A stretch of 64,000 nucleotides of DNA from Mesorhizobium sp. SARCC-RB16n (GTDB lineage: Bacteria; Pseudomonadota; Alphaproteobacteria; Rhizobiales; Rhizobiaceae): assembly GCF_008520305.1 (NCBI RefSeq), contig NZ_ML703266.1, positions 1 to 64,000 of the forward strand. Reading direction: 5' to 3'. This document shows positions 17,731-60,704 of the stretch, in pieces. Positions within the stretch are counted from its first letter, which is position 1, and every line of letters begins with the position of its first letter. The notes below the pieces were generated by a model. It saw only the letters and a list, made by a program, of their open reading frames with translations, ran no database searches and was not told the DNA's origin. A program made the position numbers and the translations under genes.

Positions 17731-17805
17731 CTAGAAATACCCCATGATGCTCAGGTCCGCCGCATCTCCTGGGTCCGTGGGGTCGGCCGGCCGGCGCTGG
17801 CACAT
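17731..17805 (-). CDS. candidate 24-residue small protein
   Basis: A 24-codon ORF on the minus strand (begins MCQRRPADP, ends SIMGYF, stop TAG) preceded by GAGGAGG at ideal distance from its ATG. A CTTGAC -35-type element lies at 17880-17875, giving a leader of about 40-50 nt. The peptide is hydrophilic and acidic in the middle with a hydrophobic end; no family recognised. A 7-bp stem (AGCCGGC / GCCGGCT) follows the stop. It is not in an operon: downstream on this strand lies only the end of pleD. Confidence 0.45.
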   Translation of the reverse strand: MCQRRPADPTDPGDAADLSIMGYF

Positions 17806-17878
17806 AGTGGCCTCCTCGTACCGCTGCCAAACGCCGACCGGCCCCCTTTGTCCGCTATGACATTAGGAATCTGCGTCA

Positions 17879-35411: not shown

Positions 35412-36158
35412 ATGGCATTGGACATCGGCTATGTCAGCGCGGTCGGAGCAGGGGCTATCTCGTTCCTGTCGCCATGCGTGCTGCCGCTGGTGCCGCCCTA
35501 TCTCTGCTACATGGCCGGCGTTTCGGTCGACGATTTCCGCGGCAATGCGGGTGCGACGGCCAAGGAAGGTGCACGCGGCGCGTTGCTTTATTCCTCGATC
35601 GCCTTCGTGCTCGGTTTCTCGACCGTTTTTGTCGCGCTCGGTGCCGGCGCCTCGACCATCGGCCGGCTGCTGCGTGTTTGGCAGGAGCCGCTCGCGATGG
35701 GCGCCGGCGTGCTGATCATCCTGATGGGCCTGAATTTTCTGGGCATCCTGCGCATCCCGCTGTTGTCGCGCGAGGCGCGCTTCCAGTCGCAGGGCAAGCC
35801 GGCCAGCGCCGTCGCCGCCTATGTCATGGGGCTTGCCTTCGCCTTCGGCTGGACGCCCTGCATCGGCCCCGTGCTCGGCCCGATCCTGACGCTGGCTGGC
35901 GGCCGCGAGACCGTGGGCGAAGGCGCCCTGCTGCTTGCCGCCTATTCGCTCGGTCTCGGCATCCCGTTCCTGATCGCCGCGCTGTTTTCCGGCGCCTTCA
36001 TGCGCTTCCTCGGCAAATTCCGCGTCCATCTCGGCCGCGTCGAAAAGGCGATCGGCGCGCTGCTGGTGGTCGCCGGGGTGTTCTTCCTCACCGGCGGCGT
36101 GCAGACGGTATCCTACTGGCTGTTGGAAAACTTCCCGGTGCTTGGGCGGCTGGGGTAG
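35412..36158 (+). CDS. ccdA: cytochrome c biogenesis protein CcdA
   Basis: 248-residue inner-membrane protein with six predicted helices that moves reducing equivalents from cytoplasmic thioredoxin to the periplasm. The two redox cysteines sit in LSPCVLPLVPPYLCYM (helix 1) and FGWTPCIGPVLG (helix 4), as in CcdA/DsbD-type transporters. The start at 35412 (MALDIGYVSAVGAGAISFL) has GGAG nine bases upstream; the longer open frame upstream is not membrane-like. No partner thioredoxin gene is adjacent. Confidence 0.93.
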   Translation: MALDIGYVSAVGAGAISFLSPCVLPLVPPYLCYMAGVSVDDFRGNAGATAKEGARGALLYSSIAFVLGFSTVFVALGAGASTIGRLLRVWQEPLAMGAGVLIILMGLNFLGILRIPLLSREARFQSQGKPASAVAAYVMGLAFAFGWTPCIGPVLGPILTLAGGRETVGEGALLLAAYSLGLGIPFLIAALFSGAFMRFLGKFRVHLGRVEKAIGALLVVAGVFFLTGGVQTVSYWLLENFPVLGRLG

Positions 36159-57116: not shown

Positions 57117-57204
57117 CACCATGCGACGACGATAGGCACCAGTCGCGAATGTTGCAAAATCGCCTCATCGGCTGGTCCAGCACTGCTTTGGGCCATGGCT
57201 TGCC

Positions 57205-57233
57205 TTGGCGAACGATCGAAGCATCCCTATAAC
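57205..57233 (+). promoter_or_regulatory. promoter of the leader / ABC-exporter transcript
   Basis: TTGGCG (57205-57210), 17-bp spacer, TATAAC (57228-57233): a near-consensus sigma-70-type promoter. The expected start is about 57240, 27 bases before the leader ATG. The intergenic span 57117-57499 (383 bp) holds this promoter, the leader ORF and three hairpins; 57117-57204 shows nothing. Confidence 0.65.
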
Positions 57234-57266
57234 ACCCTCTCCGCGATTCCCTTCAGGGAGGACCGA

Positions 57267-57308
57267 ATGCCAGGATTTGACATCGTTATGCGAGGCCGCG
57301 AGGCCTAG
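57267..57308 (+). CDS. putative regulatory leader peptide
   Basis: A 13-codon ORF, MPGFDIVMRGREA, with the strong ribosome binding site AGGGAGGA five bases before its ATG. It lies between a good promoter and three RNA hairpins ahead of an ABC-exporter gene, the setting of leader peptides that sense ribosome stalling. Residues 9-11 (Arg-Gly-Arg) match the +x+ pattern (basic, any, basic) at which macrolide-bound ribosomes are known to stop, for example in ErmDL. That function is inference. Confidence 0.5.
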   Translation: MPGFDIVMRGREA

Positions 57309-57315
57309 GTCTGCG

Positions 57316-57450
57316 CCGGTGTTCCCAAGTATGGGAACCACACCGGACCCAGAAAAGGCATTTGCCGCTGCCGATCGCCGCCCATGGGCAGGCGACCGAC
57401 CATAGCCGAACCTCCGCATTCACGGGCAATTTCGCCCGGGCGCGGTTTTT
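57316..57450 (+). promoter_or_regulatory. attenuator-like leader RNA structures
   Basis: Three hairpins follow the leader stop. P1 (57316-57346): CCGGTG/CACCGG plus TTCCCA/TGGGAA with a 3-nt bulge. P2 (57376-57394): CGCC/GGCG plus GCC/GGC. P3 (57414-57450): CCGC/GCGG and CGGGC/GCCCG ending in five T, a terminator. P2 and P3 share complementary GGC/GCC blocks, so alternative pairing is possible. A further CGGGC...GCCCG hairpin (57473-57490) lies next to the exporter start codon. Confidence 0.5.
57414..57450 (+). terminator. rho-independent terminator in the exporter leader
   Basis: A two-part GC-rich stem closed by CGGGC-AATTTC-GCCCG and CCGC/GCGG, followed by TTTTT at 57446-57450. It stands 50 bases before the exporter ATG and 105 bases after the leader stop, so it must be passed for exporter expression from the upstream promoter. 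Confidence 0.6.
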
Positions 57451-57499
57451 CAACTTTTGACCTTACTGGGATCGGGCTCGTTTGCGCCCGAATGACATC

Positions 57500-59305
57500 A
57501 TGGCTCGTTTTAAGATCGATTTGCGCGCGAGCGCCTTTCGCAGCGTTCTTGGTTTCACGCTAACCCATTGGCGGCGTCAGCCCTGGCGGCTTTCGCTGAT
57601 CATGGGCGGGTTCCTGCTGTCGACGCTGGCCGACGTGCTCACGCCGCTCTATTCCGGCCGGCTGGTCGATGCTGTCGCCAGCAGCGCCGGCGCGGACGCG
57701 ATTGCCTGGAATGCCGCGATGACGGCATTCTTCATCCTGATGGCGCTGGCGCTCACGGGTGTCGTGCTGCGCAACCTTGCTTTCATGGCGATTGTCGAAC
57801 TGACCCTGAAGATGATGGCCGACATCGCGGCGGATGCCTTCCACCGCGTCCAGCGCTTTTCCACCGACTGGCACGCCAACTCGTTTGCCGGCTCAACCGT
57901 GCGCAAGGTGACGCGCGGCATGTGGGCGCTCGACCTGCTCAACGACACCATCCTGATCGCGCTGCTGCCGTCGGTCGTCATGCTCGCCGGCTCGACGCTG
58001 CTGCTCGGCTGGTTCTGGCCGCTGATGGGCGCGGTGGTCGCAGCCGGCTCCGTGCTGTTCATCATGGTGACGGCGATGCTGTCGCTCGGTTATGTCGCGC
58101 CGGCGGCAAGGCTCGCGAACACCTGGGACACGCGCCTCGGTGGTTCGCTGGCCGACGCGGTGAGCTGCAACGCCGTGGTCAAGGGCTTTGGCGCCGAGCA
58201 GCGCGAGGAGCGCCGCCTCGCCAGGGTGGTTGCCAAATGGCGTGCGCGCACGCGACGCACCTGGGTGCGCGGCACCATCAACGGCACCACGCAAGGAGCG
58301 CTGCTGCTGGTCATGCGGGCGGCGGTGATCGGCCTGGCGCTGATGCTGTGGTCGTGGGGGCAGGCGAGCGCCGGCGATGTCGCTTTCGTGCTGACCTCGT
58401 TCTTCGTGCTGCAAGGCTATTTGCGCGATATCGGCACGCATATCCGCAATTTGCAGCGTTCGATCAACGACATGGAGGAACTGGTCGATTTCCAGTCCGA
58501 ACCGCTCGGCATCGAAGATCGGCCCGGCGCCGGACCGATTGCCATCACGCAAGGCCACATCGCCTTCGACAACGTCACCTTCCACTACGGCAATCACCGG
58601 TCGCCGCTCTACCGCGACTTTTCGGTCGACATCGCGCCGGGCGAACGTGTCGGGCTCGTCGGTCACTCGGGCTCGGGCAAGACCACCTTCGTCAAGCTCA
58701 TCCAGCGGCTCTATGACGTGAATGCGGGAAGGATCGTGATCGACGGCCAGGATATCTCGAAGGTTGCGCAGGCGTCGCTGCGCGGCCAGATCGCTATCGT
58801 CCAGCAGGAACCGATCCTGTTCCACCGTTCGCTGGCCGAAAACATCGCCTATAGCAGGCCAAACGCCAGCCAAGAGGAGATCGAGCATGCCGCCAGGCTG
58901 GCGAGCGCGCACGACTTCATCGCCAACCTGCCGAAAGGCTACGGAACGCTGGTCGGTGAGCGTGGCGTGAAACTGTCGGGCGGCGAGCGTCAGCGTGTGG
59001 CGATCGCCCGCGCTTTTCTGGCCGATGCGCGCATCCTGATCCTGGACGAGGCGACGTCGAGCCTCGATTCGGAATCCGAGGTGCTGATCCAGCAGGCGAT
59101 GGAACGACTGATGGTCGGCCGCACGACGCTGGTCATCGCGCACCGGCTTTCGACGGTGAGGGCGCTAGACAGGCTGCTGGTCTTCGATCGCGGCAAGATC
59201 GTCGAGGAAGGCTCGCATGACGAGTTGATCCGGCTGAGGGGCGGCATCTACCGCCGCCTGTTCGAGCGCCAGGCGCTGGAGCTGACCAAGGGCCTCGTCG
59301 ACTGA
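57500..59305 (+). CDS. ABC transporter, fused permease and ATPase (type IV exporter)
   Basis: 601-residue half-transporter. An N-terminal six-helix membrane domain (residues about 30-320, e.g. SLIMGGFLLSTLADVLTPLYSGRLVDAV) is fused to an ATPase with Walker A GHSGSGKTTFVKL, Q-loop IVQQEPILFHRS, signature LSGGERQRVAIARAF, Walker B ILILDEATSSLDSES and H-loop VIAHRLSTV. It probably works as a homodimer and exports a lipid, peptide or drug. The ATG at 57500 lacks a clear ribosome binding site and sits beside a hairpin, in line with control at the leader. A terminator follows. Confidence 0.93.
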   Translation: MARFKIDLRASAFRSVLGFTLTHWRRQPWRLSLIMGGFLLSTLADVLTPLYSGRLVDAVASSAGADAIAWNAAMTAFFILMALALTGVVLRNLAFMAIVELTLKMMADIAADAFHRVQRFSTDWHANSFAGSTVRKVTRGMWALDLLNDTILIALLPSVVMLAGSTLLLGWFWPLMGAVVAAGSVLFIMVTAMLSLGYVAPAARLANTWDTRLGGSLADAVSCNAVVKGFGAEQREERRLARVVAKWRARTRRTWVRGTINGTTQGALLLVMRAAVIGLALMLWSWGQASAGDVAFVLTSFFVLQGYLRDIGTHIRNLQRSINDMEELVDFQSEPLGIEDRPGAGPIAITQGHIAFDNVTFHYGNHRSPLYRDFSVDIAPGERVGLVGHSGSGKTTFVKLIQRLYDVNAGRIVIDGQDISKVAQASLRGQIAIVQQEPILFHRSLAENIAYSRPNASQEEIEHAARLASAHDFIANLPKGYGTLVGERGVKLSGGERQRVAIARAFLADARILILDEATSSLDSESEVLIQQAMERLMVGRTTLVIAHRLSTVRALDRLLVFDRGKIVEEGSHDELIRLRGGIYRRLFERQALELTKGLVD

Positions 59306-59343: not shown

Positions 59344-59464
59344 TCACGCGCCGCGAGACGTCCGAAGCCCCTATCATTCGGCGTATGCTGGCCGAGCAAT
59401 TCGGCTGTGAAGTCCTTTTCCCGAAATCGAGTTTGCGACGTCTGTTTACGTTACCGACCGAGAT

Positions 59465-59493
59465 TTGTTGTCTCTACTTTTGGTTGTTATATG
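59465..59493 (+). promoter_or_regulatory. promoter of the acetyltransferase-like gene
   Basis: TTGTTG (59465-59470), 17 bp, TATATG (59488-59493), inside an AT-rich stretch unusual for this window. The gene start at 59523 is 30 bp downstream. Confidence 0.5.
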
Positions 59494-59522
59494 CTGGGAA
59501 AAGCAACCCAAGCGGTCTCGCG

Positions 59523-60704
59523 ATGCATCTTGTTTCCGAAACTACCGGTGTCGAAAAGGTGGCTTCGCCATCGGTGCTGGAATCTCAGCACGGCTCGGTC
59601 CGGCCGCTCGCCGCCGAAGATCTCGAGCGCGTCGCCGCACTCTTCCTGACGAAGTTTCGCCGGCGGCAGCGTCACCTCCACGATCGCGCGATCACGGAGA
59701 CGGCCGAGTATATGAGAAAGATCTATCTTGACCCTGCCGGCCAGTCCGATGAGAGCAGCGCTCTTGTCCAAATCAACCGGCAGGGCGATCTGGGTGGGTT
59801 CCTTGGCGTCCTGAAAGCCCGTTACGAGCTCAACGGAGTGGCATTGAATGCAGCGATCATCGGGCCGTTCATGGCCGACCCCGGCGCCGATCACGGCTCG
59901 GCAGGACCGCAATTGCTGCGTGCCTTGCATCAAGGCGAATTCGATCTGCAGCTGACCGACTCGGCCAACCGGGTATCTCTGGCCTTCGCGCGTCCGATGA
60001 AATACCAGCTCCTGCCGGTCCATTGTCTGGGATGGACCTATATCTTCCTGCCGGCCGCGATGGCCGCCGCCGCACTGCACCGCAAATGGCCCCGCCTGCC
60101 TCGCATCGCAGTCGATCCCTTCGCGAGGGCATTCGACGCTCTCGCGAAGGGAAGGTTCGGACCGCCCGTCCAGCCTTCATCGTCGCATCGGATCCATGCC
60201 GGGCCGATCAATGCCGCGCAATTTGCCGAGCGTCTGCCGACCCTCTTGTCCGATTACGCTCTTCGGCCGAGTTGGAGGGACGGCGAGTTGCCGCAGCTGC
60301 TCGCACTGGCTGCCGAGAAGCGGGCCGACGGCCCACTTCATTTCGGCGGGACTTACGACGAGACGGGCAAAATGCTCGGTTGCTATGCCTTCTACGGTCA
60401 AGCCGGCGACATGGCGAGCCTGTTGCAAATCCAGGCTTCTGGACCTCACTGGGGCGCGACGCTGGACGGCCTTGTCGCGGCCGCGCGGGATATGGGCTGC
60501 GTGGGCATTACCGGGCAGACCCAGAGCAGGTTTATGCCTCAACTCTTCGGCTATAGGAATCTCTTCTTCCGCTATGCCGGGGGAACGATGGTCCGCTCGC
60601 GAATCGCCGAGGTCACGGAAGCGGTCCGCTCCGGCGACATCGCTATCGGCGGGTTGATGGGCGACCGCTGGACCCGGCTCAGTTCCGACGACTTCGGCCG
60701 CTGA
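59523..60704 (+). CDS. acetyltransferase-like (GNAT-type fold) protein
   Basis: 393-residue cytoplasmic protein. The N-terminal half ([29 protein letters not shown]...[52 protein letters not shown]) looks like a diverged GNAT domain; the C-terminal half ([31 protein letters not shown]...[22 protein letters not shown]) resembles a second one, so it may be a double-GNAT protein. The acetyl-CoA loop is weak in both. ATG 59523 was chosen from the promoter position; the frame is open to 59385. Function unknown. Confidence 0.6.

Follow-up and report, generated by a model that had tools for sequence, protein, structure and literature searches.

The ABC exporter gene at 57500-59305 of the window (the whole 64,000-nt stretch of Mesorhizobium sp. 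SARCC-RB16n DNA that was analysed, from contig NZ_ML703266.1) follows a leader that, as about an even call, we take to be an old and conserved cis-regulatory element in which translation of a small upstream ORF (uORF) would control an exporter of the ExsA family; the signal and the switch are what we infer. Comparison of related loci shows a putative promoter, a short ORF with predicted strong initiation and a basic tail, a predicted hairpin after its stop codon, and an exporter ribosome site with a covarying hairpin. The features are as follows.

57205..57233, + strand: putative sigma-70-like promoter, assigned from sequence (TTGGCG at 57205-57210, 17-nt spacer, TATAAC at 57228-57233)
57255..57262, + strand: Shine-Dalgarno sequence of the leader ORF, AGGGAGGA, read from the sequence
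57267..57308, + strand: 13-codon leader ORF, MPGFDIVMRGREA (ATG at 57267, TAG stop at 57306-57308)
57310..57353, + strand: hairpin P1, one unpaired base after the stop codon (fold of the stretch, -23.1 kcal/mol)
about 57373..57397, + strand: second hairpin P2, weakly supported, from the whole-leader fold
57414..57450, + strand: terminator-like hairpin (57414-57445) and five T (TTTTT, 57446-57450)
57468..57471, + strand: exporter Shine-Dalgarno GGGA (GGGA, GAGG, GGAG or AGGA is conserved just 5' of the hairpin)
57472..57491, + strand: candidate foldable-spacer hairpin between the Shine-Dalgarno and the exporter ATG (134/154 loci, eight families)
57500..59305, + strand: ABC exporter, ExsA ortholog (PF00664 and PF00005 domain matches)

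Conservation of the leader ORF and identity of the exporter

Direct reading of the window confirmed the positions that a first-pass annotation had given for the promoter, the Shine-Dalgarno sequence, the 13-codon ORF, the hairpins and the exporter start. The comparison covered 154 primary exporter orthologs: the window, the named loci (the best 80 of 562 confirmed exporter stretches), and other loci from exporter searches in 161 genomes of the family (37 with a match, E<=1e-180) and 249 genomes of the order (47 with a match, E<=1e-150). Family assignments are the labels given by the search tool. Dropped before this count were the second copies L195, L206, L207 and L242, all four without a leader ORF, and L246, in which no start codon was found.

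Under a strict rule (six-base Shine-Dalgarno, ATG, 10-30 codons, 140-260 nt upstream of the exporter), a uORF is present at 137/154 loci from Rhizobiaceae and nine other families of the order. By group the counts are 78/81 (named loci and window), 28/33 (further Rhizobiaceae) and 31/40 (other families), rows that are not independent because the named loci are closely related and the "f1 other" set partly duplicates named-set species. Dinucleotide shuffles of the three groups fit the rule in means of 0.28, 0.06 and 0.23%. Conservation of the leader ORF in related exporter loci, a check that the annotation had proposed, stands at 137/154 versus at most 0.3% of shuffles. A loose rule raised the count to 149/154 and left 5/154 without any uORF. 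Of the 80 named loci, 79 have the uORF, with TTGGC found by simple match 62-65 nt 5' of its ATG in 71/79. The pattern TTG[GC][CA]-N16-20-TAT occurs upstream of the uORF in 76/80 named loci and window, 21/31 other Rhizobiaceae and 15/37 other families, and in less than 1% of mononucleotide shuffles. A generic promoter scan, which needs 9/12 matches, called no promoter in the leader. In 36 aligned leaders the GGGAGG columns of the leader-ORF Shine-Dalgarno are at least 90% conserved.

Several loci depart from this arrangement. In Mesorhizobium erdmanii USDA 3471 (L070) the leader is replaced by unrelated sequence and the exporter ribosome-site hairpin is retained. We judge its loose-rule uORF match to be due to chance, and L070 was excluded from the peptide test, ribosome-masked folding (132 leaders), local folding, duplex pairing, and the RGR and promoter-pattern counts. 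L102, L107, L110 and L119 retain the Shine-Dalgarno and the uORF, but either the sequence 5' of the uORF is altered or the promoter sits about 100 nt farther away. Three of them were aligned, and there the sequence between promoter and uORF is palindromic and looks like a repeat-element insertion.

Searches with the leader itself reached fewer genomes. A sequence model of the 5' module (R1) found 26 loci in 25/397 genomes of the order, with a single match in 24 of these genomes. Among the ten loci looked at individually, eight (L147-L152, L155 and L156) stand 5' of the exporter and two (L153 and L154) do not; L148-L152, L155 and L156 lie outside Rhizobiaceae. A DNA search across the family matched 21/394 genomes, mostly near relatives. 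An 18-base pattern matched 36/297 genomes, where only some of the places are exporter leaders and a reversed control also matched many genomes. Outside the order the picture thins out: as a raw count by the loose rule, a uORF was found at 8/18 loci (one of the 18, L257 of the class set, is without a start). Exporter copies with a leader ORF also occur outside Hyphomicrobiales, on a Burkholderia stagnalis plasmid (L270, MFRMQSAFPNVVPRHS) and in Skermanella (L271, MTSTCLLFVPGPVVR). These two copies suggest that leader and exporter gene moved together.

A domain search assigned an ABC membrane domain and an ABC ATPase domain to the 57500-59305 product. Among proteins of solved structure, those closest to it in sequence are ABCB/P-gp-type exporters (MsbA/P-gp type). 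With named Mesorhizobium records its identity reaches 99%, and with a pSymB protein of S. meliloti 2011 it is 76% over 600 residues; orthology with the S. meliloti exo-region protein was found through records that carry no gene name. In strain Ak57 the ortholog adjoins exoZ and galE, on a replicon that the record labels pSymA. We take exoB to be galE in placing this ortholog in the exo region. The exporter was taken as ExsA because of this position beside exoZ and galE and because of two published accounts (PMC3538637; PMC1403797). In the M. loti paper a similar protein, with 71% identity to the ExsA of S. meliloti, goes by the name ExsA (PMC3538637), and a S. meliloti exsA mutant, as the review describes it, secretes low- and high-molecular-weight succinoglycan in near-equal amounts (PMC1403797).

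A second exporter copy in a Mesorhizobium genome (L274:8539-10347, - strand; upstream region L195) is 70% identical to that of the window and is without the leader ORF. Genes for ACC deaminase and diaminobutyrate transaminase are found close to it, an arrangement also seen in the symbiosis island list of the M. loti paper (PMC3538637). In the window, a 439-codon ORF at 59385-60701 (+ strand), 3' of the exporter, has no Pfam or NCBIfam match at E<=0.001, and the EcpR1 small RNA is found at 17737-17848 (+ strand; Rfam RF02500, 107.9 bits).

A hairpin between the exporter Shine-Dalgarno and its start codon

The first-pass annotation had described the exporter as being without a good ribosome binding site. 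This was not borne out: GGGA is present at 57468-57471, with a hairpin between GGGA and the ATG. A site rule asked for a Shine-Dalgarno tetramer, followed after 0-3 nt by a stem of at least 5 pairs and, 4-14 nt further on, by ATG. Such a site is found at 134/154 loci, that is, 77/81 named loci and window, 27/33 further Rhizobiaceae and 30/40 in other families, versus 2.0, 3.3 and 5.8% of shuffles. Other long ORFs carry it at 1/46 in the window (the ORF at 35474) and at 12/530 among the neighbours of named loci, together 13/576. It holds in the families labelled f1, f6, f16, f20, f34, f35, f45 and f50, and fails at all 7 loci of f28, f40 and f42. The 140 loci that pass a four-pair rule have 63 distinct stems. 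Hairpin length varies from 14 to 33 nt, yet the hairpins end 8-10 nt 5' of the ATG in 125/140. From Shine-Dalgarno to ATG the distance is 23-43 nt in line and roughly 8-13 nt with the hairpin stacked out. Local folding at the site has a mean z of -1.11 in Mesorhizobium-type loci, -1.65 in other Rhizobiaceae and -1.58 in the others.

The annotation had named covariation in the hairpins as a check, and it was scored at the exporter site. The covariation score at the exporter site is 0.241 versus 0.141 for shuffles (0/500) and falls on sliding, as computed for 72 sites hand-picked from the 154, a set from which several loci without a recognisable hairpin were omitted and in which rule-failing loci such as L173, L188, L203 and L212 were retained, with a MAFFT alignment that has register slips. 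Two of five covariation measures were not above shuffles (both-side-change pairs, 372/500; further pair types, 50/500). From this pattern the exporter hairpin would be a foldable spacer.

The leader peptide, the downstream hairpins and how they may act

In the 33 unique 13-codon ORFs, pN/pS is 0.28 for codons 9-13 and 0.89 for codons 2-8; the other two reading frames give 1.18-1.24. By this measure the last five codons are under amino-acid constraint and codons 2-8 are nearly free. RGxEA-stop is mostly retained while third positions vary (GAA/GAG, GGC/GGT, GCC/GCT/GCG). The Arg/Lys fraction of the last six residues is 0.31 in 35 Mesorhizobium-type ORFs, 0.23 in 74 others and 0.27 in 33 non-Rhizobiaceae ORFs, the last group lying within the 74 so that the groups partly overlap; before the last six residues it is 0.03-0.07. 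In each of the three groups 0/300 shuffles reach the tail values. A hairpin GGCC-GCGA-GGCC within the uORF was discarded as a candidate, being broken by a frequent GAG-to-GAA change. At L124, a piece of the uORF 3' end, GAGGCCGCGAGGCTT, is repeated within about 60 nt downstream of the stop.

The whole leader of the window folds slightly better than shuffles (z -1.48; 16/200 shuffles as good). Two folding islands beat shuffles: one covers the 50 nt that follow the uORF stop, the other the ribosome site of the exporter. The stretch between them hardly does. In the 50 nt 3' of the stop the mean z is -3.25 (39 Mesorhizobium-type), -1.23 (46 other Rhizobiaceae) and -0.63 (33 other families). Predicted P1 is strong in Mesorhizobium, moderate in other Rhizobiaceae and weak elsewhere, as these values show. 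Windows from stop+40 to +90, the P2 region, have mean z of -0.16 to -0.65. The uORF stop codon lies 100-240 nt from the exporter ATG, and the middle region has more C than G (mean skew 0.11-0.17), a composition compatible with Rho. Rfam searches matched neither the leader of the window (nothing in 57150-57650 even at E values up to 5) nor the leaders of 14 related loci.

A generic terminator scan of the window did not call the 57414-57450 hairpin. Counting terminator-like hairpins at a cut-off of <= -12 kcal/mol, we found 57% in the named set versus 27% of shuffles, 32 versus 11% in other Rhizobiaceae and 14 versus 15% in other families. In two terminator-region windows the mean z is -0.69 and 0.08 for Mesorhizobium-type leaders; for the rest it runs from -0.29 to 0.10. 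On these figures an intrinsic terminator as the common switch is rejected beyond Rhizobiaceae, where the hairpin that the first-pass annotation had read as an attenuator is at chance level.

The annotation had also proposed that the leader refolds when ribosomes stall. No competing pairing was found. With a ribosome masked at the uORF start or stop, the exporter hairpin and access to the exporter Shine-Dalgarno were unchanged on average (132 leaders). For 49 Mesorhizobium-type leaders, terminator pairing is predicted at 0.20 when no ribosome is present, 0.12 when one sits on the uORF start, and 0.38 both for a stall at codon 10 and for a ribosome on the stop. Since pairing rises from 0.20 to 0.38, stalling would favour termination, if it is real, which is the opposite of what had been proposed. 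The leader segments tested against the exporter site or the uORF Shine-Dalgarno gave no clear pairing above shuffles (mean z -0.51 to 0.65). From 49 sequences RNAalifold drew a long-range helix between the 5' UTR and the terminator arm; this helix was rejected, as its pairs hardly vary and the duplex energies are near those of shuffles. For mutually exclusive structures, no competitor pairing or mask effect appeared in the expected direction under thermodynamic models, which can miss pseudoknots and kinetic folds.

Because of these switch tests, the duplex pairing, the terminator distribution and the C-rich middle region, we favour modules in series over classical mutually exclusive hairpins. 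The anatomy of the leader fits control through translation of the leader ORF. At the basic codons that end the ORF, ribosomes would slow or halt, and a ribosome at the uORF stop would reach and open the base of P1. Opening of P1 would alter exporter output via translation, possibly with Rho-type termination in the long untranslated stretch. Good initiation at the exporter would need the folded spacer hairpin. In Rhizobiaceae the intrinsic terminator may be an added layer. The signal is probably translation stress, an effect of aminoacyl-tRNA or a ligand effect.

A constitutive device is rather unlikely in our estimate: the uORF would fix a low exporter level or protect the 5' UTR from Rho or RNases, and the spacer would fix the initiation rate. 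It would accord with the nearly free N-terminal codons, with the C-rich middle region and with the failure to find a fold switch. It would also accord with a peptide that diverges fast and even changes frame. In S. meliloti 2011 (L268), 215 nt 5' of the exporter, the Ensifer nucleotides TCTCCCTACGGGGCGG, which are those around the Ensifer RGG codons, are retained and read in another frame (MKAFSSPYGADPRS); the peptide is therefore not the constraint in S. meliloti, which also weighs against our preferred reading. However, the C-terminal constraint and the basic excess would be superfluous for a mere protector ORF.

We consider improbable the model put forward at first pass, in which a macrolide-like drug would stall ribosomes at Arg-Gly-Arg and the leader would then refold, so that transcription escapes the intrinsic terminator and expression of a drug exporter is switched on. 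RGR is found in 55/80 named loci and window, but in 4/31 other Rhizobiaceae and 0/37 in other families, and near relatives carry RGS, RGL, RGY, PGR or QGR instead. RGR as a conserved sensor is rejected beyond Mesorhizobium and close kin, to which it is largely confined. The annotation had singled out codons 8-11 for conservation; the constraint lies at codons 9-13. Of its idea a weaker form remains, an Arg/Lys-rich end in every group tested. Basic-x-basic is above composition in the 35 Mesorhizobium-type ORFs (0/300 shuffles) and the 33 non-Rhizobiaceae ORFs (5/300), but at shuffle level in all 74 non-Mesorhizobium-type ORFs (122/300). The ABCB/P-gp relatives of the exporter and the enrichment of terminator-like hairpins in Rhizobiaceae would suit the model, and BmrB/BmrCD gives it a precedent, as described in the bmrB paper (PMC4191407). 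Against it stand the chance level of the terminator beyond Rhizobiaceae, the rise in predicted terminator pairing on stalling, and the lack of a competitor pairing. In addition, the S. meliloti ortholog is known, in the review's account, for an exopolysaccharide phenotype and not for drug export (PMC1403797).

An arginine-supply attenuator, which would gauge charged tRNA-Arg through slowly read Arg codons such as the CGA at codon 9, is very improbable. CGA stands at codon 9 in 30/33 unique 13-codon ORFs versus 6/154 Arg codons in four window genes and 86/4105 in 80 exporters, and the tails are rich in Arg. Nevertheless, codon-9 CGA may be inherited from one ancestor, and the exporter is not an arginine gene. 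In uORFs of other lengths CGA makes up 29/146 Arg codons, by our estimate about the level of unoptimised codons, and CGA as a general signal was set aside as inseparable from unoptimised codon use. Finally, a chance ORF with chance hairpins in a GC-rich intergenic region, with nothing regulatory, would suit the whole-leader z of only -1.48 and is in our view already refuted by the uORF in ten families (shuffles at most 0.3%) and by the Shine-Dalgarno, hairpin and ATG counts (shuffles 2-6%) with covariation.

Known relatives and meaning of the leader

Translation-sensing leader ORFs are best known from Firmicutes and enterobacteria. ErmDL-type macrolide leader peptides have basic-x-basic near the C-terminus of a short peptide, with a methylase downstream. 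The Mesorhizobium leader peptide has the same motif near its C-terminus; it differs in that the motif is not general in other genera (a conserved [RK]-x-[RK] was not found, being frequent in Mesorhizobium-type ORFs and at shuffle level in the 74 others), the downstream gene is an exporter and not a methylase, and the leader is not known to respond to a drug. In phage T4 gene 38 the Shine-Dalgarno is bridged by a hairpin, and the stem-loop shortens the effective spacing to the start codon. The exporter site likewise has a stem-loop between Shine-Dalgarno and start codon, but here the hairpin is kept across eight bacterial families, at one gene and with compensatory changes.

We regard bmrB/bmrCD and toiL/topAI as the closest known forms and call the exporter leader a further form of uORF-controlled leader. 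In Bacillus subtilis the leader of bmrCD, which encodes a multidrug-type ABC exporter, contains the short ORF bmrB together with stem-loops; in the account given there, translation of the ORF is needed for bmrCD regulation and rare codons affect read-through (PMC4191407). A short ORF with its own ribosome site 5' of the ABC exporter is likewise present here (137/154, strict rule), whereas a conserved intrinsic terminator between ORF and exporter was not found over the range of the leader. The two differ in sequence, which is unrelated, and in phylum, and the stem-loops and terminator of bmrB are inside bmrB (PMC4191407). Drug induction is shown for bmrCD, whereas the Mesorhizobium leader is known from its DNA; a candidate foldable-spacer site is present in the latter, and the bmrB account mentions none (PMC4191407). 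The Escherichia coli toiL uORF, as that paper presents it, senses ribosome stalling, with control of a downstream ribosome site and linked Rho termination (PMC12121999). It controls a toxin-antitoxin transcript. Its structure is proposed to occlude the site, whereas the exporter-leader hairpin appears to bridge it, and refolding is supported for toiL but was not detected in the exporter leader (PMC12121999). In Sinorhizobium meliloti, trpL/peTrpL is also a leader peptide in a rhizobial 5' UTR (PMC10117765; PMC7298713), but trpL is the leaderless ORF of a tryptophan attenuator (PMC10117765). The main texts of the S. meliloti ribosome-profiling and start-site papers have no mention of exsA (PMC10117765; PMC3616915). 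The first-pass view that the leader system was previously undescribed agrees with a survey of the open-access literature (subscription papers, preprints and supplements were outside its scope), in which no description of the system or of a uORF combined with a foldable spacer was found.

The leader ORF is tied to one exporter in ten families of one alphaproteobacterial order, and similar ORFs precede some relatives in other families as well as a Burkholderia copy. The conserved hairpin between Shine-Dalgarno and start codon would offer a clear example, found in nature, of a translation spacer that folds. We tentatively raise the possibility of an ancient alphaproteobacterial translation-stress sensor, in which a basic-tail leader ORF and a fold-dependent exporter site would link ribosome state to envelope or glycan export. 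In S. meliloti, a model symbiont, the ortholog already has a gene name and belongs to the succinoglycan cluster, which makes that species a ready place to test the prediction. The joint retention of the small ORF and two hairpins suggests that these bacteria may control the pump by sensing translation of the small ORF.
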